From Candidatus Iainarchaeum sp. (lineage in GTDB: Archaea > Iainarchaeota > Iainarchaeia > Iainarchaeales > GCA-2688035): a stretch of 64,000 nucleotides of DNA. A model generated the notes under the pieces. The model saw nothing but the letters and a program-made list of their open reading frames with translations, ran no database searches and was not told where the DNA came from. Made by a program: the position numbers and the translations under genes. Each line of letters opens with the position of its first letter. The stretch's first letter is position 1. The stretch lies in the NCBI GenBank assembly GCA_017610205.1, contig JAFCCL010000007.1, positions 1 to 64,000 on the forward strand. Reading direction: 5' to 3'. This document shows, in pieces, positions 20,898-36,495 of this stretch.

Positions 20898-20927
20898 CTT
20901 TAAATACTATTATGAGCATATGTTCAT
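20898..20927 (+). promoter_or_regulatory. Promoter and near-perfect operator of DUF134 gene
   Basis: CTTTAAATAC (20898-20907) is a TATA box. ATGAGCAT and ATGTTCAT (20912-20927) form an inverted repeat with seven of eight pairs, placed exactly between the TATA box and the expected leaderless start at 20929. A repressor bound here would block transcription; the DUF134 protein itself is the natural candidate. Confidence 0.55.
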
Positions 20928-20928
20928 T

Positions 20929-21234
20929 ATGGCTAGGCCAAAAAAGGCAAGATTTATAGCTAGCAATCCAGAGGTTACATACTTTAAGCCAAGGGCAATT
21001 CCACTAGCAGAACTGGAGGAAGTAAAGCTTGGTTTGGAGGAGATTGAGGCATTAAAGCTCAAGTTTTTGGAAAATCTTGAGCAAAAGGATGCAGCAAAGA
21101 AAATGAAGGTTAGCAGGACAACATTTTGGCGTGTTTTTAACAGTGCGGGAAAAAAGGTTTCAGATGCACTAATTAATGGCAAGGCTATTAAGATTGAAGG
21201 AGGGCATTATGCCCTTGAAAAGGAGGTAACATAA
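20929..21234 (+). CDS. DUF134-family DNA-binding protein
   Basis: A protein of 101 residues from the ATG at 20929, where the family normally starts (MARPKKAR); an ATG at 20920 would add three. It has a helix-turn-helix region (LEQKDAAKKMKVSRTTFWRVFNSA). DUF134 proteins usually sit beside NifX-like and small zinc-ribbon genes in anaerobes, as here. Likely a transcriptional regulator of this island, possibly autoregulated. Confidence 0.85.
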   Translation: MARPKKARFIASNPEVTYFKPRAIPLAELEEVKLGLEEIEALKLKFLENLEQKDAAKKMKVSRTTFWRVFNSAGKKVSDALINGKAIKIEGGHYALEKEVT

Positions 21235-21390
21235 ATGCCTGGAAGAGGAAGAATGGGCGGTTTTGGCATGGGTCTAGGAGGCAACTGCATTTGCCCGAAA
21301 TGTGGGGCAATAGCAGTGCATCAAAGAGGCATGCCTTGCACTCAGCAAAAATGCCCAAAATGCGGAAGTATTATGACAAGGAAAATGTAA
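21235..21390 (+). CDS. Small Gly-rich zinc-ribbon protein
   Basis: A 51-residue protein starting immediately after the DUF134 stop, with AAGGAGG 6-12 bases upstream. The N-terminus is Gly/Met/Arg-rich, then CICPKCG and CPKCG form a zinc ribbon. Such proteins accompany DUF134 and NifX genes in other anaerobes. Exact function unknown. Confidence 0.75.
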   Translation: MPGRGRMGGFGMGLGGNCICPKCGAIAVHQRGMPCTQQKCPKCGSIMTRKM

Positions 21391-21429
21391 TTGCTTTGAA
21401 AATAATTCAATCAAACAAAGGAAGTTATA

Positions 21430-22614
21430 ATGAATAAGCTTGAGAAAGCAGCTGTTATTTCAGCCTTGGGAAACGCATTTGTTTCGGTAATCAAATTTGC
21501 TGCCGGAACCGCTTTTGGTTCAGTGGCACTGATAGCAGACGCCATACACTCTTTCACTGACATAATTGGAAGCATCGCTGTTTTCTTTGGAGTAAGGTTT
21601 GCAGATGTTAAAAGCGAAAAATTCCCTTACGGACTTTACAAGCTTGAAAACCTCATAAGCCTTTTTATTGCACTTATAATTTTTTGGTCAGGCATTGAAA
21701 TCGCCTTAGAATCAATTGCAAAGCTCGCTTCCCCAATTCAGGTAACAAGCTTTGAGGCAATAATTGTCGCAATTTTTGCACTTGCAATCGTTTATGCTTT
21801 GGCAAAGTATAAGGAAAGAATTGGCAAAGCAGAGCACAGCCCAAGCATGATTTCAGAGGCAAAACACAGCATGCTTGACGCATATGGAAGCATTGGCGTT
21901 GTTGCAGCTATTGGCTTAAGCTTTGCAGGGTTTCCAATATTTGACCCGCTAATAGGACTTGTCATTGCGGTTCTTGTATTTAAGGCAGGTGCAGAAATTT
22001 TCATTGACTCTGCAAAGGTTTTGCTTGACATAAGCCTTGACTACAAAACCATAAAGAAAATTGAAAAAATTGCTTCAGCACAAAAAGGAGTCAAGATTAA
22101 GGAAATTCTTGCAAGGAACTCTGGAAGGTATATCTTTGTTGACCTAAAGCTTGAAACAGGCTTGAAAGATTTGAAAAGAGTTGACCAGCTACATAGGCAA
22201 TGCGAAGCCGAGATAATGAAAGCAGTACCAAGAATTGACAAAATAATGGTTGACATTCACTACAAGAAAAAACCTGTACTTGTTTATGCTACACCCTTGG
22301 AGAAAAGAAGTGAAAAAAGCCCTATTGCAAAAGAATTTGGAACTGCAAAATTTTTTGGCATCTTTAAGGCGGAAAACAGGGCAGGAAAAAGCGGGCTTAT
22401 TGAAAGCAAAATAATTGAAAATCCAAACTGGAAAAGCAAGGAAAGGAAAGGAATTCTTGCAGCGCAGTTGCTTGCAAAGAACAAAATTGATGTGCTTTTT
22501 GCAAAAGAGGAAATGCACAAGGGCGGCGCTTTTTATGCACTGCAAGAATCATTTATTGAAATGAGAAAAACACCGGAAAAAACTTTTAGTAAGTTGTTGG
22601 GGGAATTCAAATAA
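21430..22614 (+). CDS. CDF cation efflux protein fused to NifX-like domain
   Basis: A 394-residue protein. Residues 1-200 are a cation diffusion facilitator: six helices, with ALIADAIHSFTDIIGS (helix 2) and SEAKHSMLDAYGSIG (helix 5) carrying the Asp/His metal ligands. Residues 205-280 are the cytoplasmic CDF domain. From about 285 the chain reads as a dinitrogenase iron-molybdenum cofactor (NifX/NifB-C) domain: SPIAKEFGTAKFFGIF, ENPNWK, then GILAAQLLAKNKIDVLFAKE. It links metal export to the NifX-like proteins coded just downstream. Confidence 0.88.
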   Translation: MNKLEKAAVISALGNAFVSVIKFAAGTAFGSVALIADAIHSFTDIIGSIAVFFGVRFADVKSEKFPYGLYKLENLISLFIALIIFWSGIEIALESIAKLASPIQVTSFEAIIVAIFALAIVYALAKYKERIGKAEHSPSMISEAKHSMLDAYGSIGVVAAIGLSFAGFPIFDPLIGLVIAVLVFKAGAEIFIDSAKVLLDISLDYKTIKKIEKIASAQKGVKIKEILARNSGRYIFVDLKLETGLKDLKRVDQLHRQCEAEIMKAVPRIDKIMVDIHYKKKPVLVYATPLEKRSEKSPIAKEFGTAKFFGIFKAENRAGKSGLIESKIIENPNWKSKERKGILAAQLLAKNKIDVLFAKEEMHKGGAFYALQESFIEMRKTPEKTFSKLLGEFK

Positions 22615-22634
22615 TAGAAAATGAAACAATTAGT

Positions 22635-22892
22635 TTGATTGGATTTATTGTTCTTGCCTTTTCGCTTGTCTTTGCCTATGCAGGCACACTTTCTCAATGC
22701 ACTTACAGGAAATATATTGTTCCTGCAATGCTTTTGGTTATAGCAATAATGTTTTTGTCAGAAACAATTTCGGCATTGATGGTTGCTGTTTCAGCAGTAT
22801 TGTTTTACAGTGGATACAAAGGGTATGGTATAGAAATAAGGAAAGAAGAGCAAGCGAAAGCAGAAGAAGAAACAAAGGAGGAGAGTAAATGA
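22635..22892 (+). CDS. Small membrane protein with charged tail
   Basis: A protein of about 85 residues, probably starting at TTG 22635; no ATG is available in frame. Two or three membrane helices are followed by a highly charged tail (repeated Glu/Lys). Unknown family. Between the CDF-NifX fusion and the first free NifX-like gene, overlapping the latter by four bases, so co-translated. The start is uncertain. Confidence 0.5.
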   Translation: MIGFIVLAFSLVFAYAGTLSQCTYRKYIVPAMLLVIAIMFLSETISALMVAVSAVLFYSGYKGYGIEIRKEEQAKAEEETKEESK

Positions 22893-23416
22893 AGGTAGCG
22901 GTTAGCGCAGTATCGGAAGATATAAAACAGCCAGTAAACCTTGTATTTGGCAGATGCCCTGGCTATGTGATAGCGGAAATTGACGAAAAAGAAGTAAGGG
23001 AAACAAAGTTTGTGCAAAATCCTGGAATGAACACAGGAATGGGTGCAGGAATTGCCGCAGCACAGGTAGTTGCATCACAGGGTGTGCAGGCAGTAATTAG
23101 CGGGAATGTAGGTCCAAATGCATTTATGGTTTTGCAACAGTCAGAAATAAAGGTTTATAGGGTAGCTAGTGCAAGTGTTGAACAGGCTTTGCAGCAATTT
23201 GCTGAAGGAAAGCTTGAAGAAGTAAAGGGCTCAACAGCACCAGGTCACTTTGGAATGGGAAAAGGAACTGGAAGAGGTGCCGGAGCAGGTACAGGAAGAG
23301 GAATGGGCAGAGGTGCCGGAGCAGGTACAGGAAGAGGAATGGGCAGTGGAATGAACCGTGGTTCAGACACTGGAAAAGGAATGAGAACAGGTCTTGGAAG
23401 AGACTCGCCAATGTAA
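22889..23416 (+). CDS. NifX-like protein with Gly/Arg-rich tail
   Basis: A 175-residue protein. The first 115 residues are a NifX/NifB-C type domain (VSAVSEDIKQ, FGRCPGYVIAEID, ENPG-like QNPGMNTGMG, GIAAAQVVASQGVQAVISGNVG). This family binds Fe-S or Mo-containing cofactors; the orange protein of Desulfovibrio is a member. The last 55 residues are Gly, Arg, Thr and Met, including a 13-residue unit repeated twice. Strong RBS AAAGGAGG upstream. Confidence 0.87.
   Translation: MKVAVSAVSEDIKQPVNLVFGRCPGYVIAEIDEKEVRETKFVQNPGMNTGMGAGIAAAQVVASQGVQAVISGNVGPNAFMVLQQSEIKVYRVASASVEQALQQFAEGKLEEVKGSTAPGHFGMGKGTGRGAGAGTGRGMGRGAGAGTGRGMGSGMNRGSDTGKGMRTGLGRDSPM
23267..23345 (+). repeat. Tandem 39-bp duplication in NifX-like gene
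   Basis: A 39-base unit beginning AGAGGTGCCGGAGCAGG occurs twice back to back without change and encodes two copies of a Gly/Ala/Arg/Thr/Met unit. The perfect identity marks a recent duplication in the disordered tail. Confidence 0.7.
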
Positions 23417-23434
23417 AAAAGGAGGTTTTTTGAT

Positions 23435-23812
23435 ATGAAGGTTGCTGTTTCAACTGATAGTGGAAATGTGGCAGAGCATTTTGGAAGATGCCCTCAATTC
23501 ACAATTGCAGAAATTGAGAATGGTAAGGTTGTAAAAAAAGAGGTTATTGAAAACCCGGGACATACGACAGGGTCTTTGCCGCGGTTTTTTAATGAGAAAG
23601 AGGTTTCGGTTGTGATTGCAGGCGGTGCAGGCTTTAGGGCACAACAGTTCTTTGAAGAGTTTGGAATAAGGCTGGTGGTTGGCATTTCAGGAAGCGTTGA
23701 TAATGCATTGCAAGCTCTTTCCGAAGGAAAACTTGAAAGCGGAAAAGGCAGTTGCAGTCCTGGTGCAGGAAAAGGGTATGGAATTCCAAAGGAAGACGGT
23801 CACGGAGAATAG
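23435..23812 (+). CDS. NifX-like (orange-protein-like) protein
   Basis: A 125-residue NifX-family protein: VAVSTDSGNVAEHFGRCPQF at the start, VIENPGHTTGSLP, VVIAGGAGFRAQQFFEEFGI, and a tail with KGSCSP. AAAAGGAGG lies upstream. Domain length and motifs match the metal-cofactor-binding proteins of Mrp/ORP clusters. Second of two free NifX proteins, which may form a heterodimer or act at successive steps (inference). Confidence 0.88.
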   Translation: MKVAVSTDSGNVAEHFGRCPQFTIAEIENGKVVKKEVIENPGHTTGSLPRFFNEKEVSVVIAGGAGFRAQQFFEEFGIRLVVGISGSVDNALQALSEGKLESGKGSCSPGAGKGYGIPKEDGHGE

Positions 23813-23853
23813 ATTTATCCAAAGCACTGCAGGAAAAATAAGTTTGGGATAAA

Positions 23854-24504
23854 ATGAAGCTAAAAATTTTGGTTGACAACCAAGCAATGTCTAACTTTAG
23901 GGCAGAATGGGGCTTCAGTTGCCTTGTTGAAGCAAAGGAAAATGTTCTGTTTGATACAGGGACAAGCGCTGATGTGCTGGCGTTCAATGCAGAAAAGTTC
24001 GGCATAAAGCCAGAGCAGATTAGCAAAGTTGTTTTGTCGCATGATCATTTTGACCACACTGGCGGCCTTGAATGGGTTTTGCAAAATCCAAAAGTTAAGG
24101 TTTTTGTTTTAGATTCATTTTCTGATGAAACAAAACAGAGTATTGAAAAAAAGGCTGAATTGATTGAAGTAAGCAAGCCTGTTGAAATAAGCAGAAGTGT
24201 TTTTTCTACAGGAAAATTAAGCAATTCAATTGACGAGCAGGGTTTGGTTCTGGAAGTAAAAGAAGGAGTAATAGTTTTGGTTGGCTGTTCCCACCCAGGT
24301 TTGGAAAAAATTTTGAAAAAAGCCAGGAAGTATGGAAGGATTCACGCTGTAATCGGAGGATTCCACGATTTTAACAAGTTTGATGCACTGGAAAAGGTTA
24401 AGATTATTGCTGGAACACACTGTACTGAGCATAAGACAGAAATTCAAAAACTTTTTCCAAAAGCGTTTACAGAATGCTCTGCCGGAACAGAATTTGAATT
24501 TTAA
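23854..24504 (+). CDS. Metallo-beta-lactamase fold hydrolase
   Basis: A 216-residue protein with the dinuclear metal motif SHDHFDHTGG (H63, H65, D67, H68), then GCSHPG and GTHCTEH. It resembles the archaeal enzyme group annotated as dihydropterin-ribofuranosyl-aminobenzene phosphate synthase, but similar proteins are common in NifX/Mrp clusters with unknown substrate. In the same direction as the NifX genes, 41 bases downstream. Confidence 0.82.
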   Translation: MKLKILVDNQAMSNFRAEWGFSCLVEAKENVLFDTGTSADVLAFNAEKFGIKPEQISKVVLSHDHFDHTGGLEWVLQNPKVKVFVLDSFSDETKQSIEKKAELIEVSKPVEISRSVFSTGKLSNSIDEQGLVLEVKEGVIVLVGCSHPGLEKILKKARKYGRIHAVIGGFHDFNKFDALEKVKIIAGTHCTEHKTEIQKLFPKAFTECSAGTEFEF

Positions 24505-24514
24505 GGCGACTTTA

Positions 24515-24601
24515 ATGCGAAAGGAATGCAAGTGGTTTCAGGCTTGCCAGATGAAAAGATTTTGGGGAGATGGAAGGGTTTGCCATTTACGCTTCCATTA
24601 A
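24515..24601 (+). CDS. Tiny Cys-containing protein, doubtful
   Basis: A 28-codon frame right after the MBL gene, with MRKECKWFQACQMKRFWGDG and a later Cys. The spacing C-x5-C followed by MKRF resembles the start of small Cys-rich proteins that I have a pattern memory of, but the frame ends early and its 3' end overlaps the convergent glycosylase gene. It may be a truncated remnant. Confidence 0.3.
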   Translation: MRKECKWFQACQMKRFWGDGRVCHLRFH

Positions 24602-25165
24602 AATGGAAAAGTCTTTTTTGAGGGGTTCAAGCATTCCTGCATTATAGGTTGCCACTGCTGGATGGTACAAGGGAATTATTTCTATTTGGCCTGTAAGGGT
24701 TGATACAGCAAAAGTTTTTCCATGGATTAGACTTATCCCAGCAAGCTTATCCTGCAAACCGAATTTTTTCATGATGAATGATGCAGCAAAGTTTCCAAGG
24801 CAGCAGATTTTTTCTGGCCTTATTGTTTCAATTTGGCTGCCGAGGTAAAGCGAGCAGGCTTTGATTTCACTTGGAAACGGGTTCCTGTTTTGAGGAGGCC
24901 TGCATTTCAAAACATTTGTAATGTAAATATCTTGCCTCTTCAGGTTAATTGAGTTTAAAAGCTGGTCAAATATTGTGCCTGCCTTTCCAACAAATGGCTT
25001 GCCCTGCCTATCCTCATTAAAGCCTGGTGCTTCACCTACAAACAATATTTTGGCATTCAAGCTGCCCTCTCCCAAAACAGGGCTGCCCCTCGTTTTCCAC
25101 AGGTCACAGCGCCTGCAGTTTGCCACTGCCTGTCTCAATCCAGCAATTGCTTCATCTTTTAACAT
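24587..25165 (-). CDS. Uracil-DNA glycosylase, family 4
   Basis: A protein of 192 residues with the four Cys of the [4Fe-4S] cluster (CRRC at 17-20, C88 region in LKCRPPQNR, and ICCLGN) and the active-site motifs GEAPGFNED and PLYHPAVATYN. It removes uracil produced by cytosine deamination, important for AT-rich archaea. On the opposite strand within the island, so it is probably unrelated to it. Confidence 0.92.
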   Translation of the reverse strand: MLKDEAIAGLRQAVANCRRCDLWKTRGSPVLGEGSLNAKILFVGEAPGFNEDRQGKPFVGKAGTIFDQLLNSINLKRQDIYITNVLKCRPPQNRNPFPSEIKACSLYLGSQIETIRPEKICCLGNFAASFIMKKFGLQDKLAGISLIHGKTFAVSTLTGQIEIIPLYHPAVATYNAGMLEPLKKDFSILMEA

Positions 25166-26727: not shown

Positions 26728-27606
26728 CTATTTTGTATACTTTAAAACAATGTCCCCTTCTTTGACTCCCAAATCAAAGGCGATTACATTGCATTTGGCT
26801 ATTAGCATAAAAAACACGCCATTGAACTGGCTTAACCCCTCATAATTCCCTTGCCCTTTTGAAATAGTCACATCATGGTTTTTTATCCAACTCCTGACTT
26901 CTGGAGAGTTTCTTACAGGCCCTGTGCCTGGCAGCCCGTTGTCTGTTGCCCTGAATTCAACTAGGGGAATTTTGTCCATGCCAATGTATTTAGCGTCTTC
27001 CATTGTAGCATCATTTATTATGGGCCCGCCTTTTATTACCACAGTAACCATTAGGTTTGCAAGCCCTGCTTTCTTTCGCAATTTTAAGATTGTTTCTATC
27101 AGCAGCTTGTCAAAGGCTATTTCTCCAGCGTTGTCTGTAAAGAATAAAAGGCTTTTTGCATTACTTAGCTTTTCTTTGAATTTTTCATAGTCGTTTATTG
27201 CAAACTCTTTGCCCAAAACCTCTTCAACCGTTTTTTCAACGTTAAATGAACCGCCTGTGGGGCCAAAATCCATAATGTTTCCGGCAATCGAAATTCTTAT
27301 TGCTGCAAGCAGCGGGTCAGGGCTAGTGTCAACCTCGCACTTTATTTTGGGAAGCATTTTCATTGCAAGGTTATTGCAGTCTTTCTTCACTTTTTTGTAC
27401 GGGTCGTCTATTCCAATTTCCTTTCTAATAATTCCATGCACCGCATGTGCCATCTCCGGCGGTGTCAGAGACCAATCCAAATCCAACAGATGGCGCATAA
27501 CCTGCCTTAACAGTTTCTCCTGCAATTTTTCGTCCCTGGTATTCATTCTCAGGGCTTTTAGCAATTGCCTTTGAAAACAGGGAATGCAATCCAGATTAGC
27601 TTTCAT
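26728..27606 (-). CDS. DUF89-family metal-dependent phosphatase
   Basis: A 292-residue protein with CIPC at residues 7-10 and the DUF89 motifs TDNAGEIAFDKLL and SKGQGNYEGL. DUF89 proteins are Mn/Co/Ni-dependent phosphatases thought to remove damaged phosphometabolites. The archaeal branch has the N-terminal CxxC. Convergent with the disulfide reductase gene and divergent from the Mrp gene. Confidence 0.87.
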   Translation of the reverse strand: MKANLDCIPCFQRQLLKALRMNTRDEKLQEKLLRQVMRHLLDLDWSLTPPEMAHAVHGIIRKEIGIDDPYKKVKKDCNNLAMKMLPKIKCEVDTSPDPLLAAIRISIAGNIMDFGPTGGSFNVEKTVEEVLGKEFAINDYEKFKEKLSNAKSLLFFTDNAGEIAFDKLLIETILKLRKKAGLANLMVTVVIKGGPIINDATMEDAKYIGMDKIPLVEFRATDNGLPGTGPVRNSPEVRSWIKNHDVTISKGQGNYEGLSQFNGVFFMLIAKCNVIAFDLGVKEGDIVLKYTK

Positions 27607-27743: not shown

Positions 27744-28517
27744 ATGAACAAAATTGAATTAAAAAATGTTGGAAAAAGGATTGCGGTAGTTAGTGGAAAG
27801 GGAGGCACAGGAAAAAGCACTTTTTCCACTTTGCTTGCTTTGAGTTTGGCAGCCAAAGGAGAAAGAGTTGGCTTGCTTGATATTGATGTGCATGGCCCAA
27901 ACATCCCTCTAATGCTTGGGATTGAGGGAAAAAACATGGGTGTTGACAGCAACAAAAGGCTACTGCCTGTTAAGGCCGAGCCAAACCTAAAAGTCGTTTC
28001 CACCAGCTTTATGCTTAAAAAAGACCAAGCACTTATTTGGAGAGGGCCACTAAAATCAAACCTTATAAAACAGGCAGTGGAGCAGACTGACTGGGGCAGC
28101 CTGGATTTTCTCATTGTTGACAATCCCCCAGGAACAGGTGATGAAACAATTACCCTGACCCAATTAATTGATTTGAACGGAGCAATAATTGTGGGAACGC
28201 CGCAAACAGCGTCAGTATACGATGTAAGAAAAGCAGTAAACATGATGAAAACCGTCAATGTCCAGGTTTTAGGATTAGTGGAGAACATGAGTTATTGCAT
28301 TTGCCCGCATTGCAAAGAAAAAATTGACTTGTTTGGAAAAGGCAGAATAAAACAGCTGGCAAAAGAGGAAAAAGTGCCCTTTTTGGGTGAAATTCCCATA
28401 GACATTAAACTAAGGGAAATGGCTGACAAAGGTGGCATCAAGCTAAACAACCTTAACCCGAAAATAAAGAAAACTATCAATGACATAATCAAAAACATAG
28501 GCAACAAAAGCTTTTGA
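27744..28517 (+). CDS. Mrp/NBP35-family Fe-S carrier ATPase
   Basis: A 257-residue P-loop ATPase: deviant Walker A GKGGTGKST (18-26), switch and Walker B (LLDIDVHGPN, IVDNPPGTGDE), and a CxCPHC motif in VENMSYCICPHCKEKIDLFG, which binds a [4Fe-4S] cluster at the dimer interface. It transfers Fe-S clusters to target proteins. In ORP-type clusters an Mrp protein stands beside NifX proteins; the same holds here. Confidence 0.93.
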   Translation: MNKIELKNVGKRIAVVSGKGGTGKSTFSTLLALSLAAKGERVGLLDIDVHGPNIPLMLGIEGKNMGVDSNKRLLPVKAEPNLKVVSTSFMLKKDQALIWRGPLKSNLIKQAVEQTDWGSLDFLIVDNPPGTGDETITLTQLIDLNGAIIVGTPQTASVYDVRKAVNMMKTVNVQVLGLVENMSYCICPHCKEKIDLFGKGRIKQLAKEEKVPFLGEIPIDIKLREMADKGGIKLNNLNPKIKKTINDIIKNIGNKSF

Positions 28518-28576: not shown

Positions 28577-28608
28577 GGTTTTTGTTTCATAATTATTATT
28601 AGTTGCAA

Positions 28609-28986
28609 ATGATTAACCCAAAGGACTCACAAACCGCAATGGCTTTCGCAAGAGTATTTGCCACATTGTCAGACCCGAACAGGTTGCTGATACTGAAAAC
28701 GCTTGGAGACAAGGAAAAGTCAGTAAACCAGCTTGCGATTGAATTAAACCTTTCACAGCCACTGGTTTCACACCACTTGGCTGCGCTTAAAGCAAACGGC
28801 CTGGTGAAAGCAAAAAAAGCAGGCAGCTTTGTATTTTACAACACGGCAACAAAAAAAATCGCTGAGTTGGTTAATAGCTTGGAGAACACTTTGGAAGACA
28901 TAGCAAAAAACATGGAATTAACACCTTTTCCCCAGCCACTTTTTCCTTTCAGAAGAAGAGGCAGAAGGGGAAGAGGGTGGATGTAA
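28609..28986 (+). CDS. ArsR-family transcriptional regulator
   Basis: A 125-residue protein from the ATG at 28609. Winged helix region: LSDPNRLLILKTLGDKEKSVNQLA, recognition helix LSQPLVSHHLAALK, wing GSFVFYNT. No Cys is present, so it does not sense metal through the usual Cys sites. The tail ends in an Arg/Gly-rich piece (RRRGRRGRG) like the disordered tails of the next gene. Likely controls the genes from 28.6 kb on. Confidence 0.88.
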   Translation: MINPKDSQTAMAFARVFATLSDPNRLLILKTLGDKEKSVNQLAIELNLSQPLVSHHLAALKANGLVKAKKAGSFVFYNTATKKIAELVNSLENTLEDIAKNMELTPFPQPLFPFRRRGRRGRGWM

Positions 28987-29005: not shown

Positions 29006-29416
29006 ATGCCATTTGGAGATAGAACAGGACCAAACGGACTTGGCCCAATGACAGGTAGAGGAGCAGGCTACTGCGCCGGCTATTCAACGCCTGGATATGC
29101 CAACCCTGTTGGGAGCAGAGGCTTCTATGGTAGAGGTGCCGGCTTTGGAAGAGGTGGCGGCAGGGGCTTTGGACGCGGCTTTGGAAGAGACAACAGGCAG
29201 CGCTTTTACGCAACAGGCGTGCCAAGTAGGGTATACGGAACTTATGACCCTTATGCAGTGCCTTACGCAGCGCCTTACAACTCTGCTCAAGCACCAGCAC
29301 AGCCTTCAGAAGCTGAACTGCGCAGACAGGAAAAGGAAGCCCTGGGACAAGAAGCAAGTGCCTTGGAGCAAGAGCTTGCCGAGATAAAGAAAAGACTTGT
29401 CGAATTAGGCAAGTGA
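29006..29416 (+). CDS. DUF5320-family Gly/Arg-rich protein
   Basis: A 136-residue protein with the family start MPFGDRTGPNGLGPMTGRGAG and GYCAGY, a Gly/Arg/Phe-rich middle, a Pro/Ala/Tyr stretch and a C-terminal coiled coil (about 100-135). DUF5320 proteins are found next to NifX and MinD-ferredoxin genes in many anaerobes. Molecular role unknown. AAAAAAGGAGGTGAG is a very strong RBS, so the protein is probably abundant. Confidence 0.85.
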   Translation: MPFGDRTGPNGLGPMTGRGAGYCAGYSTPGYANPVGSRGFYGRGAGFGRGGGRGFGRGFGRDNRQRFYATGVPSRVYGTYDPYAVPYAAPYNSAQAPAQPSEAELRRQEKEALGQEASALEQELAEIKKRLVELGK

Positions 29417-29635: not shown

Positions 29636-30043
29636 TTGTCTGACCTTGATGTAGAAAGAATCAAAGCAGAAAAATTAAGGAAAATGCAGGAGCAAATGCA
29701 TCAAAACGAGGTGAAAAAAGTGGAGATTGAAGTAAACGACGAAAATTTTCAAAAAGAAGTAATTGACAAAAGCAGAAATGTTCCGGTTGTGGTTGACTTT
29801 TGGGCAACTTGGTGCGCACCCTGCCTTACTCTTAGTCCGACCCTTGAAAAGCTTGCAAAAAAATTCAATGGAAAGTTTGTGCTGGCAAAAGCAAACGTTG
29901 ACGAAAGCAAGGCCGCAAGCACAAAATATGCCATCTCATGCATTCCTGCAGTGAAAATGTTTAAGAATGGAAAGGTAACAAACGAATTCATCGGAGCTTT
30001 GCCAGAAGCAGCGGTTGAACAGTGGCTTCGCAAAAACATCTGA
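29636..30043 (+). CDS. Thioredoxin with charged N-terminal helix
   Basis: A protein of 135 residues, starting at TTG 29636. A 30-residue charged helix (DVERIKAEKLRKMQEQMHQ) precedes a normal thioredoxin domain with WCAPC (C60, C63) and the cis-Pro in SCIPAVKMF. First gene of the ABC/GTPase block. The helical extension is unusual for thioredoxin and might dock it onto a partner. Start codon inferred from lack of alternatives. Confidence 0.88.
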   Translation: MSDLDVERIKAEKLRKMQEQMHQNEVKKVEIEVNDENFQKEVIDKSRNVPVVVDFWATWCAPCLTLSPTLEKLAKKFNGKFVLAKANVDESKAASTKYAISCIPAVKMFKNGKVTNEFIGALPEAAVEQWLRKNI

Positions 30044-30055
30044 AGGCAGTTAAAA

Positions 30056-30865
30056 ATGAAGATAAAAAAAATAACTATTTTTCCCGGCCGCAGCAAGCAA
30101 GGCGAAAAAGAATCCTTTGAAAAAATCGAGATATTAGCCGGGCAAAAAATAGGAATTGTCGGTCCAACAGGCTCGGGGAAAAGCCAATTGTTATATGACA
30201 TTGAAAAGCTTAGCCGAGGAGAAACAAAGACCCTAAGAAAGATTTTGATAAACGATAACAAAGTGCAGAAAGGCCTTAGAACAGACCCGGCAAGAAAAAT
30301 AATTGGCTATTTAACCCAGCATATGAATTTTATGACAGACACAACAGTCCAAAATTTTTTGGAAACCCATATAATGACAAGAGGCCGGCACAGGTCAGAG
30401 GAAAGCACCAAAGAGCTGGTTGAAAAGATAATAGAGTCCGCAAACACCATAACAGGCGAGGAAATCAACAAGAATACGAATTTACTTATTTTGTCAGGCG
30501 GGCAGTCAAGAGCTTTAATGGTTGCAGACCTTGCATATATCAGTGAGTCCCCAATTATCCTGATAGATGAAATAGAAAACGCTGGCATAAGAATCAGTGA
30601 AGCCCTTGACCTGTTAATCAAAAAGGGAAAAATAATCTTCTTGGTAACACACAACCCGATTCTTGCTTTGGATACTGACAAAAGGATGGTCATGAAAAAC
30701 GGGGCAATAAGCAACATTATTTATACCTCAGTTAAGGAAAGAGGAATTGCAAACTATCTTTCATGGATTGATAACTACATGTTAGATGTTAGAGAAGAGG
30801 TAAGAATGGGGAAAAAAGTGGAAGAACTGCGGCTGATATGTACGCCAATGGGGGTAAAAAGATGA
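30056..30865 (+). CDS. Soluble ABC-type ATPase
   Basis: A 269-residue ABC ATPase without membrane segments: Walker A GPTGSGKS (36-43), Q loop in LTQHMNF, signature LSGGQSRALM, Walker B PIILIDEIE, and switch His in LVTHNP. No permease gene lies nearby. It overlaps by four bases with a P-loop GTPase gene carrying Fe-S type Cys motifs. I infer that the two ATPases work together in cofactor maturation, not in transport. I cannot name a characterised homologue. Confidence 0.82.
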   Translation: MKIKKITIFPGRSKQGEKESFEKIEILAGQKIGIVGPTGSGKSQLLYDIEKLSRGETKTLRKILINDNKVQKGLRTDPARKIIGYLTQHMNFMTDTTVQNFLETHIMTRGRHRSEESTKELVEKIIESANTITGEEINKNTNLLILSGGQSRALMVADLAYISESPIILIDEIENAGIRISEALDLLIKKGKIIFLVTHNPILALDTDKRMVMKNGAISNIIYTSVKERGIANYLSWIDNYMLDVREEVRMGKKVEELRLICTPMGVKR

Positions 30866-31653
30866 AAATAGCAATTTTTGGCGGAACACCAGGAAGCGGA
30901 AAAACAAGTGTAATCAAATTTGTAATGCAGGAACTGAAAGACTTAAGCATTCATTATGCAAAATTTGATGTTGTATCCACAGAAGACCACCTGCTAATAA
31001 AAAACAAGTTTGGGATAAACACTGAAAAGAAAATATCTGGAGAAATATGCCCAGACCATTACGCTGCACTTGAAATCCCAAAAATCGTTGAAAAGCACAA
31101 AAACAAAGATCTAATTATAATAGAAACAGCTGGGCTTTGCCTAAGGTGCTCGCCATATATAAACGAAGGACTTGCAATCAACATCCTGAACATTTTGGCA
31201 GGAAAGCCTTCAAGTTATGGTCCACTGCTAACACACGCTGACCTAGTGGCTACAACCAAGGGCGACCTGATTTCACAGGCAGAAAGGGAAATCTTCAGGT
31301 CGGAAGTTCTGAAAGTTGCCAAAAATGCTTCAATAATTGAAGCAAACGGCCTAACAGGCGAAGGTGCGATTGACATAGCAGAGGCAGTGAAAGAAAGCCC
31401 TGAAATAAAAGGAAAACTTACCTTGAAGCATTCCATGCCAACCGCTGTTTGCGGATACTGCTATGGAAACAAAACAATTGATTCAGAGGAAACATTGAAG
31501 CGTTACTCACTTGGCAAGGAACTGAAAGCAAGGATTCCAAACCTGAACTGCGGAAAATGCGGATTCAAATCATGCAATGAATTCATAAGAGCGGTTTTGG
31601 ATAAAAAAGTGAATGAAGATACGTGCCCTTACTTGAAAGGCAAGAAGGGATAG
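30862..31653 (+). CDS. P-loop GTPase (UreG/HypB/CobW-like) with C-terminal Fe-S domain
   Basis: A 263-residue protein from the ATG at 30862. Walker A GTPGSGKT (8-15), then IIIETAGLCLRC (C93, C96) at the Walker B position, and ADLVATTKGDL as the guanine-specificity-like motif of SIMIBI metallochaperone GTPases. C63 lies in GEICPDH. The end has CGYC (C197, C200) and a Fes-type [4Fe-4S] motif C-x2-C-x4-C-x16-C (C230, C233, C238, C255) as in RnfB and corrinoid Fe-S proteins. Predicted metal or cluster inserter. Coupled to the ABC ATPase gene. Confidence 0.8.
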   Translation: MKIAIFGGTPGSGKTSVIKFVMQELKDLSIHYAKFDVVSTEDHLLIKNKFGINTEKKISGEICPDHYAALEIPKIVEKHKNKDLIIIETAGLCLRCSPYINEGLAINILNILAGKPSSYGPLLTHADLVATTKGDLISQAEREIFRSEVLKVAKNASIIEANGLTGEGAIDIAEAVKESPEIKGKLTLKHSMPTAVCGYCYGNKTIDSEETLKRYSLGKELKARIPNLNCGKCGFKSCNEFIRAVLDKKVNEDTCPYLKGKKG

Positions 31654-31655
31654 AA

Positions 31656-32000
31656 ATGAAAAAAGGGCTTAAAAAAGAACTTGATAATGCAATAGACACA
31701 TCGGGTACTGAATTAAAATGGGTTCCAGACCCAAAGGGATATTTTACAATAAAACCCATTTTCTCACAAAAAAAAGTTTTTGTAAGACATTATAACTCAA
31801 AAGATGTTTTAGAACAAACCTTTGCAGGAACAATCACACCAGAAATAGTTCAGGCAATTATCCAAAGAAAACTAATCTCAAGATTAGACCATGCTGCCTA
31901 TCTTGGAAAGGAAACAGAAAAAGCAATAATCGCATTAAAAAACAAACTAGAGTATGTTCAAGGCAACAAATTGCACTTAGAAAGTAAAATAAGGGATTAA
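31656..32000 (+). CDS. DUF4346-like small protein
   Basis: A 114-residue protein two bases after the GTPase stop (ATG 31656, AAGGGA upstream). It reads DPKGYFTIKPI, VRHYNSKDVLEQTFAG, LDHAAYLGKETEKAIIAL, LEYVQG. This pattern resembles DUF4346, a small domain seen in methanopterin-related and other archaeal proteins. No catalytic motif is obvious. As part of the block it may be the target or scaffold of the GTPase (inference). Confidence 0.6.
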   Translation: MKKGLKKELDNAIDTSGTELKWVPDPKGYFTIKPIFSQKKVFVRHYNSKDVLEQTFAGTITPEIVQAIIQRKLISRLDHAAYLGKETEKAIIALKNKLEYVQGNKLHLESKIRD

Positions 32001-32057
32001 TTGAAACGTTTCAAACCTGAAAATTTTATGGACTGGAGATAAATTGGAGTTGGTAAA

Positions 32058-32411
32058 ATGCCATGGGTAGACAAAGAAAAATGCACAGGCTGCACTATTT
32101 GTGTGAAAAACTGCCCGGTAGAAGCTATTAGTATGGAAAATGGAAACGCCGAAATAGATATGGATAAATGCATAAGATGCGGCAAATGCCATGAAGTATG
32201 TCCTCAAGAAGCAGTCAGGCATGACAGCGAGAAAATTCCACAAGAAATTGAAGAAAATATTGAATGGGCAAAAAGACTAATGAAACACTACAAAACAAAA
32301 AAAGAAAAGAAGGAATTTCTGAAAAGAATGGTTAAACATTTTAACAAAGAAAAAAAGGTTGCGGAAGAAAGCCTTAACAAGATTAAAGAAATCGAGGCTG
32401 ACAAAAAATGA
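32058..32411 (+). CDS. 2[4Fe-4S] ferredoxin with helical tail
   Basis: A 117-residue protein. Residues 1-55 are a bacterial-type ferredoxin with CTGCTICVKNCP and CIRCGKCHEVCP. The remaining 60 residues are a long, charged, probably coiled-coil helix. It likely delivers electrons inside the complex encoded by this block. It overlaps the methyltransferase gene by four bases. Confidence 0.88.
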   Translation: MPWVDKEKCTGCTICVKNCPVEAISMENGNAEIDMDKCIRCGKCHEVCPQEAVRHDSEKIPQEIEENIEWAKRLMKHYKTKKEKKEFLKRMVKHFNKEKKVAEESLNKIKEIEADKK

Positions 32412-32992
32412 ACAAAGAAATGAGAAACTGGGAAGGAAAAGAAGGAATCAGATTCCTAAAGAGAATTGGAATTAAGCCAGGCCAGAAAGTCTTGGATTTT
32501 GGGGCGAGAGTCGGACACTATTCGATTCCGGCGGCAGTGGTTGTTGGAAACCGCGGAAAAGTTTACGCCTTGGATAAAAACAAAGACCCTTTAAACGAAT
32601 TAAAAAGAAAGGCTACAGAACAAAAACTGGAAAACATAATCTTGGTCAAAACCAATGGCAGGTTGAAAACCGAGCTGGAAAATAACTCTGTTGACGCTGC
32701 ACTTGCTTATGACGTATTGCACTTGATAGACGACAGAAAAAAGTTGTACATGGAAATCAACCGAGTTCTTCAAAAGAATGGCCTGTTTTCAGTATATCCA
32801 AAACACAACAAATTAGACCAACCAGAACAAAGCTTGAAAAATCTGGGACCAAAAGACATTGTGAAAGAAATAGAAGCCCACAACTTTTATTTTGAAAAAA
32901 AGCATTGTGGGCTTATAAGCCATGATGATTTTTTCAACAAAGGATGCGTTTTGAATTTCAGGAAAAAGAGAACTCCTAGAGGCAAGAAATAA
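32408..32992 (+). CDS. Class I SAM-dependent methyltransferase
   Basis: A 194-residue protein with motif I VLDFGARVGHYS (about 28-39), acidic VYALDKN for the SAM ribose, and AYDVLHLI for motif IV region. Substrate not recognisable. Fully embedded in the operon by overlaps at both ends, so it probably modifies a component of the cofactor system. Confidence 0.8.
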   Translation: MNKEMRNWEGKEGIRFLKRIGIKPGQKVLDFGARVGHYSIPAAVVVGNRGKVYALDKNKDPLNELKRKATEQKLENIILVKTNGRLKTELENNSVDAALAYDVLHLIDDRKKLYMEINRVLQKNGLFSVYPKHNKLDQPEQSLKNLGPKDIVKEIEAHNFYFEKKHCGLISHDDFFNKGCVLNFRKKRTPRGKK

Positions 32993-33198
32993 TGAAAAAA
33001 ACAATAAACGGCTGGTTGTTTAACAGAATAGAAAAGCTTGGAAACAAGGAATTTAACCATATTGGATGCGAAGGCGAAAACAGCTCTTTTGGAGACTTTC
33101 TTGCCTCGTTTGTGCCAAAAATAGGAACAAGAAGGAAAGCAAGGTTTACAATAGAAACGCTTGACAATTCTGAAAAAAAGGCGAGGAATAAGCACTAA
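32992..33198 (+). CDS. Small hypothetical protein
   Basis: A 68-residue basic protein starting on the last base of the methyltransferase stop. It contains NHIGCEGENSSFGDFLASFVPKIG and no recognised domain. It has one Cys. Kept as a gene because of its coupling to the neighbour and a following RBS. Confidence 0.5.
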   Translation: MKKTINGWLFNRIEKLGNKEFNHIGCEGENSSFGDFLASFVPKIGTRRKARFTIETLDNSEKKARNKH

Positions 33199-33218
33199 AA
33201 AGGAGGCAGTGATGGAAA

Positions 33219-33395
33219 ATGGTTAAAATAAACAAAAAGTTATGCGCTGGATGCGGAAACTGTGTGGAAGCATGCCCTTTTGAAGTATTAAAAATTAAAG
33301 ATGGAAAAGCAGTGGTTGTAGATTCGGAAAAATGCCAAAAATGCGGGGCCTGCATGTCAATCTGCCCAAACAACGCAATCAAAATTGAGGAATGA
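33219..33395 (+). CDS. Small 2[4Fe-4S] ferredoxin
   Basis: A 58-residue ferredoxin made only of two cluster motifs, CAGCGNCVEACP and CQKCGACMSICP. The RBS AAAAGGAGG (about 33198-33206) lies 12 bases upstream. It sits directly before the ferredoxin:thioredoxin reductase gene, one base apart, and is the obvious electron donor for it. Confidence 0.9.
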   Translation: MVKINKKLCAGCGNCVEACPFEVLKIKDGKAVVVDSEKCQKCGACMSICPNNAIKIEE

Positions 33396-33396
33396 T

Positions 33397-33663
33397 ATGA
33401 ACAGAAAAATCAAAAAACTTATCAAAGAATTTGAGGGATATGCAAAAGAAAACGGCTTTAGGCTAAATCCTGATTCAAAAATAGCGAAAGAAACGATAAG
33501 AGGGCTGCTTGAAAACGAGAAAAAGCATGGACAAAGGTACTGTCCCTGCAGAAGAGTAACAGGAAATAAGGAGGAAGACAAAAAAATAATCTGCCCCTGC
33601 ATTTATCACGAAAAAGAAATCAAAACACAGGGCCACTGCCTTTGCCAGTTGTTTTTCAAGTGA
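33397..33663 (+). CDS. Ferredoxin:thioredoxin reductase catalytic subunit-like
   Basis: An 88-residue protein from the ATG at 33397. It has CPC (C49, C51), CPC (C66, C68) and CLC (C81, C83), matching the three motifs of the FTR catalytic (beta) chain that hold a [4Fe-4S] cluster and a redox disulfide. In plant and cyanobacterial FTR the third motif is CHC; here the His is replaced by Leu, though His80 precedes it. No FTR alpha chain is seen, as in other archaea. A thioredoxin-like gene follows. Confidence 0.88.
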   Translation: MNRKIKKLIKEFEGYAKENGFRLNPDSKIAKETIRGLLENEKKHGQRYCPCRRVTGNKEEDKKIICPCIYHEKEIKTQGHCLCQLFFK

Positions 33664-33669
33664 TTCAAA

Positions 33670-33987
33670 ATGCAGCTGCTTGTTTTTGTTTCATCACATT
33701 GCCCACACTGTCCAAAAGCAGTAACAGCCGTAAAAGAAGCTGTTTCCCAATACAGTGACTACAATTTGAGTTACAGAAAAATAAGGGCAAAAACAGCGGA
33801 AGCAAAACAAATTTCGGGCAAATATGGCATAAGGGCATACCCCACAATAATAGGCCTAAACGACCGTGAGGAAACAGTATGCAAAATTATTGGAGTGCCA
33901 AGCGAAGAAAAACTTAGGAAAGAAATTGAAAAAGCCCTTGGCCTGAGAAAATCGCTTTTCAGAAAAATTTTTGGCGGCAGGACATGA
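33670..33987 (+). CDS. Thioredoxin/glutaredoxin-like protein
   Basis: A 105-residue protein with redox motif CPHC (C11, C14), cis-Pro in IRAYPTIIG and a basic C-terminus. It resembles the small archaeal glutaredoxin-like thioredoxins and is the likely partner of the reductase encoded just upstream. It overlaps the CoA-binding gene by four bases. Confidence 0.85.
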   Translation: MQLLVFVSSHCPHCPKAVTAVKEAVSQYSDYNLSYRKIRAKTAEAKQISGKYGIRAYPTIIGLNDREETVCKIIGVPSEEKLRKEIEKALGLRKSLFRKIFGGRT

Positions 33988-34382
33988 ACCCAAACGATTT
34001 TTTAAACAAGGGAAACAAAATTGCAGTAGTGGGCGTTTCAGCCAATCAGAAAAAATGGGGCTTTAAAATATATGAAGAGCTAAAGTCTTCTGGCTTTCGC
34101 GTTTACCCAATAAACCCAAAACAAAAAATAATAGGGCAGGATGTCTGTTACCCAAATTTGGAAGCCTTGGCAGAAATCCCTGATGTTGTAATAACAGTTG
34201 TTCCCCCAAAGGTTACGGAACAAGTTGTAAAGCAGTGCAGAAAACTTGGCATAAAAAGAGTTTGGATGCAACCAGGCTCTGAATCAGAAAAAGCAATAAA
34301 GTTTTGCAAACACAATAATATTGAAATAATGCATGATGCTTGTTTTATTGTTAATGGTTTAAAAATGGGGGAAAAAAGATGA
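33984..34382 (+). CDS. CoA-binding domain protein (COG1832 type)
   Basis: A 132-residue Rossmann protein with IAVVGVSANQKKWG at the start, YPINPKQ, DVVITVVPP and WMQPGSES, the pattern of stand-alone CoA-binding proteins (YccU-like). It may sense or bind CoA or a CoA persulfide; role unproven. Overlaps both neighbours by four bases. Confidence 0.87.
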   Translation: MNPNDFLNKGNKIAVVGVSANQKKWGFKIYEELKSSGFRVYPINPKQKIIGQDVCYPNLEALAEIPDVVITVVPPKVTEQVVKQCRKLGIKRVWMQPGSESEKAIKFCKHNNIEIMHDACFIVNGLKMGEKR

Positions 34383-34723
34383 TAACTTTTGCATGCAAAA
34401 AAATAAGGCTGGATGAAATTGTCAGATGTTCATTTAGTTTGAACAAGACAGAATACAATGCGCTAATGTTTTTGCTTAAAAAAGAAAAAGAATTTGATAT
34501 TTACACTCTTTCTAAAAAAATGGGTTTAGAGAGGACAACCTTGCAAAAGGCACTAAAAAAGCTTTTAGACAAAAAGCTGGCAAAAAGAAGGCAGGTAAAT
34601 ATAGAAACAGGCGGCTATTTTTTTCTATACAATGTAAAAAACAAAGGCTCAATAAAGATGCGGCTTTTGGAGATAATTAGGCAATGGGAAAAAACCGCTG
34701 AAGAGGAAATACAAACCCTATAA
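34379..34723 (+). CDS. HTH transcriptional regulator (MarR/TrmB-like)
   Basis: A 114-residue protein with a winged helix-turn-helix (LNKTEYNALMFLL, IYTLSKKMGLERTTLQKALKKLLDKKL). Two Cys near the N-terminus (C6, C17) could sense redox or metal. Its place at the end of the operon just before the MinD pair suggests it controls one or both. Confidence 0.75.
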   Translation: MITFACKKIRLDEIVRCSFSLNKTEYNALMFLLKKEKEFDIYTLSKKMGLERTTLQKALKKLLDKKLAKRRQVNIETGGYFFLYNVKNKGSIKMRLLEIIRQWEKTAEEEIQTL

Positions 34724-34726
34724 TAA

Positions 34727-34756
34727 TGCACATATGCACAAAACCTATTTAAATTG
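34727..34756 (+). promoter_or_regulatory. Promoter and TGCA dyad before MinD pair
   Basis: CTATTTAAATTG (34745-34756) is a TATA box about 30 bases before the ATG at 34784. TGCA-CATA-TGCA (34727-34738) is a short inverted repeat just upstream, with the CATATG core also seen in the DUF134 operator at 20917-20922. It could be an activator or repressor site. Confidence 0.4.
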
Positions 34757-34783
34757 TTTGACATGCATTTGAATTGGTTTAAG

Positions 34784-35617
34784 ATGAAACAAATTGCAAT
34801 TACAGGTGGCAAGGGAGGGACAGGAAAAAGCACTGTTGCAACAGCTATTGCTGTAGAGCTTGGGAAAAGGCATAAAGTGCTTTTAGTTGACGCAGATGTT
34901 GACTGCCCCAATGACCACCTGCTGCTTGGAATTGAGAGAACGAAAGTCAGGACAGTATACCAAAGAATTCCAACGTGGGATTTTGAAAAATGCACCAAAT
35001 GCGGCAAGTGTGCAGAGACCTGCAAGGTCAATTCCATTTTTGGCCCAAAAGGAAAACAGCCCATTTTTTTACCACAGCAATGCAATGGTTGTGGCGCATG
35101 CGTTATAACCTGCCCTGCAAATGCAATAAGCTGGAGTGAAAAGGAAATCGGCGAAATTTTTAGGGGAAACGGCCATGGCATTGGTTTTATTTCAGGCGAG
35201 TTAAAGGTAAATGAAGCTGTTTCCGAATTTGTTGTCAATGCGTTAAAAGAGGAAGTTAAAAAAATTGGGAAAGGATACGATTTTATTTTGTTTGACACAG
35301 CAGCTGGAACCCATTGTGATGTGATTTCTGCTTTGGAAGGAAGCAGCATTGCTTTGGCTGTTACAGAGCCAACTCCGCTTGGAGAGCATGACCTTGAATT
35401 GATTATGAAGCTGTTGAAAAGGCTTGGCATAAAATTTGAAATTGTTTTGAACAGGTTTGAAGAAGGCATGGAAAAGCTGATTGAAAAAGTTGCTGAAAGC
35501 AACGGAAAAAAGATTGCGTCAAAAATACCCTACAGCAAAAAAATAATGGAAAACTACAGCAAAGGCATTCCAGTAAAACATGAAAGCATTGAAAAGATTG
35601 CGGAGCTGGTTGAATGA
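34784..35617 (+). CDS. MinD-type ATPase with inserted ferredoxin domain
   Basis: A 277-residue protein from the ATG at 34784. Deviant Walker A GGKGGTGKST (8-17), then after the switch a 2[4Fe-4S] ferredoxin insert (C70, C73, C76, C80 and C100, C103, C106, C110), then Walker B FDTAAGTHCD. Pairs of such proteins form the core of the ORP complex of Desulfovibrio and occur beside NifX proteins in methanogens. Predicted to load or carry Fe-S or Mo/Cu-S clusters using ATP. Confidence 0.92.
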   Translation: MKQIAITGGKGGTGKSTVATAIAVELGKRHKVLLVDADVDCPNDHLLLGIERTKVRTVYQRIPTWDFEKCTKCGKCAETCKVNSIFGPKGKQPIFLPQQCNGCGACVITCPANAISWSEKEIGEIFRGNGHGIGFISGELKVNEAVSEFVVNALKEEVKKIGKGYDFILFDTAAGTHCDVISALEGSSIALAVTEPTPLGEHDLELIMKLLKRLGIKFEIVLNRFEEGMEKLIEKVAESNGKKIASKIPYSKKIMENYSKGIPVKHESIEKIAELVE

Positions 35618-36495
35618 AAAAAATAACAGTTTTAAGCGGAAAAGGTGGTGTTGGAAAAAGCAGTATTGCCGGTTCGCTTGCAGTTCTTTTGGCAAAAAAG
35701 CATGAAGTTATCTGTGCCGACTGTGATGTTGACGCCTCAAACCTTGGGCTTGTTCTGGGATTAAAGGAAAAGGATTTTGAGGAATGGGAAAGAATTTCAA
35801 CAAACGAAAAGGCTGTTTTGGACGAAAAGAAGTGCAATGGCTGCAAAAAATGCGTTGAAAGCTGTTACTTTAAGGCAATCAAATGGAACAAGGAAAAAAA
35901 ACAGCCTGTTTTTGACAGCCTTATATGTGAAGGATGCGGCGCATGTGAAATAGTTTGCCCTGAAAACGCAATAATTCTTGAAAAAGTGCAAAATGCAAAA
36001 ATTGGATTTGGGAAAACAAAATACGGTTTTGGCATTGTTTCAGGACAGCTTGAAATGGGCGAATCTGGTTCTGGAAAGGTAGTGGCAGAAGTAAGAAAGC
36101 TTGCAGAAAAAAAAGGCAAGGGAGCGGAAATTATGGTTATTGATGCTGCAGCAGGAATAGGATGCCCTGTAATTGCCTCAGTTGTTGGAAGCGACTTTGT
36201 CATAGGGGTTACTGAACCAACGCCGTCAGGACTCTCAGACTTGAAGAGGGCTTTGCAGATGACAGAGCATTTTGGAATTGGTTGCGGGATTGTGATAAAT
36301 AAGCACGACCTTAATCCAAAATTTACAAAAAGGATTGAGGCATTTGCAAAAGAAAATGGTTTGGAAGTTCTTGCAAAAATTCCTTATGAAAAGGCATTTG
36401 TTGAGGCATTAATTAACCTTGTGCCAATAATTGAATTCAAATCAGAAACGAAAAAGTTTTTTGAAGAAATAATTGGCAAGCTTCCTAAGGATTAA
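35614..36495 (+). CDS. MinD-type ATPase with inserted ferredoxin domain, second copy
   Basis: A 293-residue paralogue of the preceding gene, overlapping it by four bases. Walker A SGKGGVGKSS (8-17), ferredoxin insert with C74, C77, C80, C84 and C105, C108, C111, C115, and VIDAAAGIGCP. The strict pairing suggests a heterodimer, as proposed for ORP1/ORP2-type proteins. Confidence 0.92.
   Translation: MKKITVLSGKGGVGKSSIAGSLAVLLAKKHEVICADCDVDASNLGLVLGLKEKDFEEWERISTNEKAVLDEKKCNGCKKCVESCYFKAIKWNKEKKQPVFDSLICEGCGACEIVCPENAIILEKVQNAKIGFGKTKYGFGIVSGQLEMGESGSGKVVAEVRKLAEKKGKGAEIMVIDAAAGIGCPVIASVVGSDFVIGVTEPTPSGLSDLKRALQMTEHFGIGCGIVINKHDLNPKFTKRIEAFAKENGLEVLAKIPYEKAFVEALINLVPIIEFKSETKKFFEEIIGKLPKD

Follow-up and report, generated by a model that had tools for sequence, protein, structure and literature searches.

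In the orange protein (ORP) complex, the NifX-type Orp8 is accompanied by Orp3 and Orp4, MinD-type proteins with two [4Fe-4S] motifs, and by MrpORP (PMC6345978). IssA carries a Gly-rich, cationic and aromatic tail, the related IssX clade has Gly-rich tails of high pI, and IssA thioferrate provides clusters to apo-ferredoxin with dithiothreitol, the natural thiol being called unknown (PMC5524996). Methanogens hold a trio of ATPase, nickel-binding GTPase and iron-sulfur (Fe-S) protein beside their coenzyme M (CoM) genes, with a role stated to be unknown (PMC12068725). Here we analyzed an island of metal and Fe-S genes in a 64,000-nucleotide stretch of DNA from Candidatus Iainarchaeum sp. (hereafter the window; GCA_017610205.1, JAFCCL010000007.1), which corresponds to contig 13 in an archaeal genome of 1.37 Mb. 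All coordinates are window positions, and genes are on the forward strand unless stated otherwise. Our results showed that the island joins two separable modules: module A, by its sequence an ORP-like Fe-S set of known kind, and module B, a fused variant of the methanogen trio.

Module A is made up of transporters, DUF134, a cation diffusion facilitator (CDF) protein with a NifX domain, two further NifX proteins, Mrp, ArsR, DUF5320 and a MinD pair. Module B runs from a thioredoxin through an ATP-binding cassette (ABC) ATPase, a GTPase/Fe-S fusion, a ferredoxin and a ferredoxin:thioredoxin reductase (FTR) to a second thioredoxin, with lineage-specific additions such as DUF4346. We read the island as two modules because each is found without the other. 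MinD-ferredoxin proteins are absent from Dependentiae and from most candidate phyla radiation (CPR) carriers of the GTPase/ABC/ferredoxin/FTR cassette, and many relatives have MinD/NifX without the cassette. A preliminary description of the window, made from its sequence, had proposed one enlarged ORP system; a single system was rejected on account of this separability.

The island is conserved among relatives. Nearly the whole set stays together in relatives from the same genus and family (G003, G004, G005, G013, and G014) and in G030, which represents a different family of the order, while genes for uracil-DNA glycosylase, DUF89 and a CoA-disulfide-reductase-like protein are inconstant members. 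MinD-ferredoxin genes were detected in 35 of 113 relatives, 31 of which also have NifX, and the two lie at most 15 kb apart, mostly adjacent, in 27 of these 31 (co-occurrence by Fisher test, p ~6e-15, which kinship among the genomes makes indicative only). Since the set is kept in the genus, the family and another family, and given these statistics, the cluster is more than chance. As the preliminary description had it, NifX and the paired MinD-ferredoxin proteins form a conserved ORP-like unit, and scattering without co-occurrence, the outcome it had named as refuting, did not appear. The GTPase is rarer than MinD/NifX (7/75 genomes of the order), and each of the seven genomes of the class that carry the cassette encodes MinD as well as NifX. 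G030 also contains a 3-kb contig (L048; G030:C10:1-3195) that is 85–97% identical to the Mrp-ArsR-DUF5320-thioredoxin-ABC-GTPase stretch of the window, although it belongs to another family and holds its own 78% copy; this contig is probably contamination of a metagenome-assembled genome (MAG) or a very recent transfer.

Window genes were assigned to families by Pfam and NCBIfam profile searches. Module B lies in a single-strand run of 16 genes (29636–38204), whose intergenic gaps, none longer than 60 bases, and several overlaps of 4 bases suggest an operon. The core of the run is a soluble ABC ATPase, a GTPase ending in a PF04060 Fe-S domain (the fused type) and a DUF4346 domain. Thioredoxin 1 (29636..30043; PF00085, 95 bits) is the first gene of the cassette and precedes the ABC gene at most fused-type loci. 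It is followed by the ABC ATPase, which has no permease (30056..30865; PF00005, 56 bits), and by the GTPase (30838..31653, with a likely start at 30862; PF02492, PF04060). Then come DUF4346 (31656..32000; PF14251, 70 bits; NF002128, 62 bits), a pterin-binding-type domain like the C terminus of MtrA, which is confined at the cassette to genomes of the window's family, and a 2x[4Fe-4S] ferredoxin (32058..32411; Fer4 families). The FTR catalytic chain (33385..33663; PF02943, 83 bits) has the spacing CPC-x16-CPC-x8-CHC, as expected for this chain, and CPC..CPC..CHC is invariant across the family. Thioredoxin 2 (33670..33987; TIGR00411, 50.6 of 92.75 bits) is of the small redox-disulfide type. The preliminary description mentioned neither the ABC ATPase, the CobW/HypB-like GTPase-FeS protein and DUF4346 nor three further genes of the run, encoding a methyltransferase, a coenzyme A (CoA)-binding protein and a TrmB-type helix-turn-helix (HTH) protein.

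A profile search of solved structures with the GTPase returned HypB and UreG only. The AlphaFold model (predicted local distance difference test score, pLDDT, 85) had its best PDB fold matches in UreG/HypB (E ~1e-8 to 6e-10; template modeling score, TM, ~0.6–0.7 by target), which places the modeled domain in the UreG/HypB fold class. The motifs CPDH, GLCxRC and CxxC are invariant in the fused and unfused GTPase types, and we take CPDH and GLCxRC to resemble, by position, the metal-binding Cys/His of UreG (CPH) and HypB. The window GTPase shares with these proteins the fold and the Cys/His motifs after the P-loop; unlike them, it has an extra CxxC and an Fe-S domain, and its partner is an ABC ATPase. 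It is distinct from HypB, as it reaches 39.2 bits against an NCBIfam HypB cut-off of 121.2 and occurs in carriers without any NiFe hydrogenase.

In the CoM-linked methanogen trio, a homologous soluble ABC ATPase precedes the GTPase in the same order as in the window, and the PF04060 domain comes next. The methanogens have a separate full-length COG2000 Fe-S protein, whereas the window has just the Fe-S domain, as the C-terminal part of the GTPase, and ferredoxin, FTR and thioredoxin adjoin the window-type GTPase where CoM genes adjoin the methanogen trio. Module B is a second, CoM-free setting for three methanogen genes of unknown role (PMC12068725). Module A is of a known kind, and what appears new is the GTPase-FeS fusion that comes with an ABC ATPase and a dedicated chain for thiol reduction; we found no description of this cassette in the searchable literature, including for CPR and DPANN.

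A scan of 84,980 species with the GTPase gave 449 relatives, and the best 80 were analyzed (28 fused-type and 52 unfused loci). An identity gap separates the 28 FeS-fused loci (57–96%) from the remaining ones (at most 43%), which belong to methanogens, Bacteroidota and a few others and usually have the Fe-S protein as a separate gene. The same split was recovered in the GTPase tree with support of 100/99 (one long-branch row flagged). The fused-type sources are DPANN, an Altiarchaeales single-cell genome, CPR, Dependentiae/Babeliales, three loci titled "bacterium" and one contig of a Syntrophaceae MAG, so that across these 28 loci the type is nearly restricted to small-genome DPANN archaea, CPR bacteria and Dependentiae. 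Carrier genomes are mostly 0.5 to 1.1 Mb. Only the 2.5-Mb Altiarchaeales record and the Syntrophaceae locus (L062) lie beyond the small-genome lineages; L062 is a 4.9-kb contig of a 3.4-Mb MAG with HdrBC-like neighbors, named by sequence, and represents either a binning error or a real transfer.

Mis-binning of the bacterial loci as a whole is unlikely: whole-genome searches for EF-2/EF-G found archaeal EF-2 in the archaeal-titled carriers and bacterial-type factors in the others, and LepA, TypA or MraY, identified by sequence reading, stand beside the cassette on several contigs. The window GTPase shares 57–67% identity with its bacterial homologues, while the window EF-2 shares only 47–52% with that of other DPANN/Altiarchaeal carriers. 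Together with the patchy distribution, these identities suggest that the cassette was transferred between domains.

The neighborhood of the GTPase also differs between the two types. At fused-type loci, ABC is present within 6 kb in 28/28, ferredoxin in 26/28, thioredoxin in 20/28 and FTR in 16/28, counts that are lower bounds since many contigs are short; the ABC gene directly adjoins the GTPase in all 28. Within the same distance, unfused loci have ABC in 50/52, ferredoxin in 10/52, thioredoxin in 1/52 and FTR in 0/52. The enrichment of ferredoxin, thioredoxin and FTR was significant in each case (Fisher p <1e-8, kinship ignored). The preliminary description had envisaged dedicated reduction of a NifX-linked cofactor by FTR and thioredoxin; they are indeed dedicated neighbors, along with ferredoxin, but they track the GTPase rather than NifX. 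Companion permeases differ between loci (SLAC1, SBF-CBS, ArsP_1, and CDF).

All the families named in the preliminary description were found in place and in near-continuous runs by Pfam, NCBIfam and open reading frame (ORF) inspection, and so were its three NifX-type domains. Two of these are clear (71–77 bits). NifX1 (22889..23416; PF02579, 77.5 bits) has a 70-residue Gly/Arg-rich cationic tail like that of IssA/IssX. NifX2 (23435..23812; PF02579, 71 bits) is a one-domain protein nearest to the Di-Nase half of MrpORP, as it matches NF041136 at positions 265–359 (88.8 bits), and has structural matches of the MTH1175/TM1290 type. The third, at the C terminus of the CDF cation transporter (21430..22614; PF01545, 140 bits; PF02579, 24–27 bits), is weak (24.4 bits in hmmscan and 27.4 in the genome search, for a cut-off of 26.3); the best NCBIfam equivalogs of this protein are MamB/MamM/FieF, each below its cut-off. 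Mrp/NBP35 (27744..28517; PF10609, 303 bits) is a single-domain Fe-S carrier that covers only positions 1–249 of the 365 of NF041136 (318 of 450 bits). MinD1 (34754..35617; PF01656, Fer4) is a MinD/ParA ATPase with an inserted 2x[4Fe-4S] ferredoxin, and MinD2 (35614..36495; PF01656, Fer4) is its paralogue at 39% identity.

As in the Desulfovibrio vulgaris ORP system, the window clusters one-domain NifX proteins, two paralogous MinD/ParA proteins with two [4Fe-4S] motifs, and Mrp. However, MrpORP is an Mrp fused to Di-Nase, whereas the window has separate genes, NifX2 being the Di-Nase part. An Orp5-like [2Fe-2S] gene, present in ORP, was not recognized in the window cluster, which exceeds ORP by the CDF-NifX protein, DUF134, DUF5320 and the transporters. 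The window being archaeal, control by sigma-54, as for ORP, is not expected.

NifX1 combines a NifX-type domain (IPR003731) with a Gly-rich cationic tail, as do IssA/IssX (Pyrococcus furiosus PF2025). The tail is 36% Gly with a net charge of +6, and its repeats are visible in the DNA. The preliminary description had pointed to the Mo-Cu-S cluster of the ORP system. Judging from the sequences, iron-sulfide storage suits the NifX proteins at least equally well, because Mrp lacks a fused Di-Nase, the NifX1 tail resembles those of IssA/IssX, and Orp8 is the only link to Mo-Cu-S. Some relatives have aromatic-rich, IssA-type tails on their NifX proteins. NifX1-like or Trp-richer tails, some with Trp/Gly/Arg repeats, were seen on 14 of 26 NifX-region proteins of relatives, a count from automatically picked ORFs in which a few may be the neighboring DUF5320 gene. 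Gly/Arg-rich segments on NifX, DUF5320, DUF134 or ferredoxin proteins occur at ~14/28 fused-cassette loci versus 3/52 unfused. Cationic tails of this kind beside the cassette were observed on differing families, namely DUF134 (L056, L060, and L075) and ferredoxin (L057 and L062), and also at L063, L065 and L070. True ferritin (at least 55 bits) was present in 1/24 MinD-bearing versus 6/19 MinD-lacking genomes (p ~0.03); with a threshold chosen post hoc and confounding by kinship, this anticorrelation is suggestive only.

We tentatively favor a reading, possible though short of probable, in which module A acts as an Fe-S storage and carrier set and module B as a nucleotide-driven machine for metal or sulfur delivery, joined in one island. 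The ZIP and CDF transporters would set the metal level, and the cationic tails of the IssX-like NifX1 and of the Gly/Arg/aromatic-rich DUF5320 would hold anionic iron-sulfide. NifX2, Mrp and the two MinD-ferredoxin ATPases would take up clusters and pass them on. The UreG/HypB-type GTPase, with its putative metal site (CPDH, GLCxRC, and CxxC) and fused low-potential [4Fe-4S] domain, would act with the ABC ATPase. Ferredoxin would give electrons to the Fe-S domain and, via FTR and thioredoxin, to the GTPase cysteines and the stored iron-sulfide, and GTP/ATP hydrolysis would release metal and/or sulfide to acceptors. Stored iron-sulfide could also be freed by FTR/thioredoxin acting as the thiol, and the pair is a candidate for the natural thiol, called unknown, by which IssA thioferrate is mobilized (PMC5524996). 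A broader version, in which a portable ATP/GTP-driven delivery machine for metal or sulfur is swapped among archaeal and bacterial symbionts with small genomes (DPANN, CPR and Dependentiae) while ferredoxin, FTR and thioredoxin tap an iron-sulfide store on Gly/Arg-rich tails of several unrelated proteins, seems improbable to us; if true, it would hint at what the CoM-linked trio does in methanogens as well.

Several observations weigh against the storage-and-delivery reading. Dependentiae and most CPR carriers have module B without module A, and the function of B therefore cannot depend on A. The varying permeases suggest a cargo other than iron in some genomes. CPDH in the GTPase is no proof of nickel, and our genome searches found NiFe hydrogenase absent in all CPR and Dependentiae carriers of the cassette. 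The NifX1 tail, rich in Gly/Arg/Ala/Thr/Met, has hardly any aromatics, unlike IssA of P. furiosus and the Thermococcales. In addition, relatives without the island also lack SufBD, yet encode Fe-S enzymes. The SufB/SufD core domain was found in none of the 22 tested genomes of the order, including that of the window, while all control genomes were positive; a necessary replacement of SUF by the island is ruled out, as island-less relatives equally lack SufBD.

The strongest rival is a response to reactive sulfur or metalloids, in which the cassette and the thioredoxins would reduce and remove persulfide, sulfite, or arsenic/tellurium species, alongside exporters that vary, and the metal genes would be a consequence of co-regulation. 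We consider it unlikely, although it would account for the CsoR-family regulator that often leads the cassette in CPR and Babeliales, where Cys-Asn-Cys replaces Cys-His-Cys; it has Cys at X and Z, the positions whose residues are implicated in sulfide sensing by CstR (PMC5146963), with Asn for the usual His. Also in line with this rival are the neighboring permeases (SLAC1, SBF-CBS with DUF302, and ArsP_1), the ArsR regulator and the methyltransferase, for which arsenite methyltransferase is the top NCBIfam model. The setting of the methanogen trio fits as well, its neighbor, ComA or cysteate synthase, being in either case a sulfite-using enzyme of the CoM pathway. However, exporters vary by locus and many loci have none, the methyltransferase scores far under the family cut-offs, and the window ArsR has no cysteine. 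To our knowledge, a HypB-like GTPase has no part in stress systems of this type, which also speaks against it. An enlarged ORP system, whose NifX proteins would assemble a Mo-Cu-S or other heterometal cluster that the MinD-ferredoxins move and FTR/thioredoxin reduce, is still less likely: NifX, the paired MinD-ferredoxin ATPases and Mrp are indeed as among the Desulfovibrio orp genes, but Mrp lacks the Di-Nase domain, FTR and thioredoxin go with the GTPase instead of NifX, and the IssA-type tails favor iron-sulfide.

To two other explanations we give very little credence. One is that the cassette makes a CoM-like thiol or a pterin-linked methyl-transfer cofactor with the help of DUF4346 and the methyltransferase. 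The homologous trio does stand beside CoM genes, and DUF4346 resembles the C-terminal domain of MtrA, but the CoM synthase MMP16 exceeded its cut-off in four methanogens only, ComA or cysteate synthase adjoins none of the 28 fused-type loci, and DUF4346 is restricted to the window's family. A role in CoM synthesis or MMP16 maturation was rejected, as MMP16 stayed below the cut-off in every non-methanogen carrier. The other, the least credible of all, takes the GTPase for a nickel chaperone that substitutes for HypB in serving the NiFe hydrogenases of the archaeon. Its HypB/UreG fold, the group-4-type hydrogenase cluster in the window (4500–13084) and the lack of a HypB scoring above the cut-off in those DPANN genomes of the order that bear the cassette would agree with this. 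Against it, hydrogenases of the family occur with or without the cassette, CPR and Dependentiae carriers have none, and methanogens hold a true HypB plus the trio; the substitution was rejected since the distribution of hydrogenases is independent of the cassette.

The remaining genes in the region of module A begin with two ZIP metal transporters (19377..20117, PF02535, 148 bits; 20149..20877, PF02535, 82 bits), the first of which stays beside NifX genes in relatives, and a putative DNA-binding DUF134 protein (20920..21234; PF02001, 96.5 bits). A small membrane protein adjoining NifX1 (22635..22892; no Pfam match) is kept in relatives, and a metallo-beta-lactamase-fold protein (23854..24504; PF00753, 50 bits) is a neighbor kept in relatives of the family. 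The ArsR-family regulator (28603..28986; PF01022) has a tail that is Pro-rich, then Arg/Gly-rich. DUF5320 (29006..29416; PF17253, 77 bits) was recognized as Gly/Arg/aromatic-rich from its composition and has a single cysteine. A literature search on DUF134 and DUF5320 yielded nothing useful, and no RNA families were detected by a search of the island region.

Within the 16-gene run, the first ferredoxin is followed by the class I S-adenosylmethionine methyltransferase (32408..32992; PF08241, 48 bits), a conserved protein of 68 residues (32992..33198; no Pfam match, kept in relatives) and a second small 2x[4Fe-4S] ferredoxin of 58 residues (33219..33395; an ORF with two CxxCxxC motifs). Between thioredoxin 2 and MinD1 lie the CoA-binding domain protein (33984..34382; PF13380, 112 bits) and the TrmB/MarR-type HTH regulator (34379..34723; PF01978, 32 bits). 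The run ends with a secreted or membrane protein of the thioredoxin-like group (36556..37392; no clear family, CxxC) and a CcdA/SfLAP-like membrane protein (37389..38204; PF11139, 30 bits, below the cut-off), which are kept together in relatives. A DUF89/ARMT1-like gene (26728-27606, opposite strand) lies near the ABC-GTPase genes, as it does in two distant archaeal loci (L044:11268-12134 and L098).

Upstream of the island, a gene cluster (4500–13084) that includes cation-antiporter-like subunits and a gene for a maturation protease resembles those of membrane-bound NiFe hydrogenases of group 4 (Mbh type); its large subunit exceeds the PF00374 cut-off and the remaining subunits were named by sequence reading. 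Three public records of the window's genus (L049, L050, and L051) are mistitled as Chloroflexi, Thaumarchaeota and Falkowbacteria, titles in this MAG series being unreliable, while the named relatives that the GTDB scan turned up otherwise bear the title Candidatus Diapherotrites. Finally, a DEAD-box helicase-like protein (2724–4175) carries tandem RGSS/RGG repeats in its C-terminal tail.

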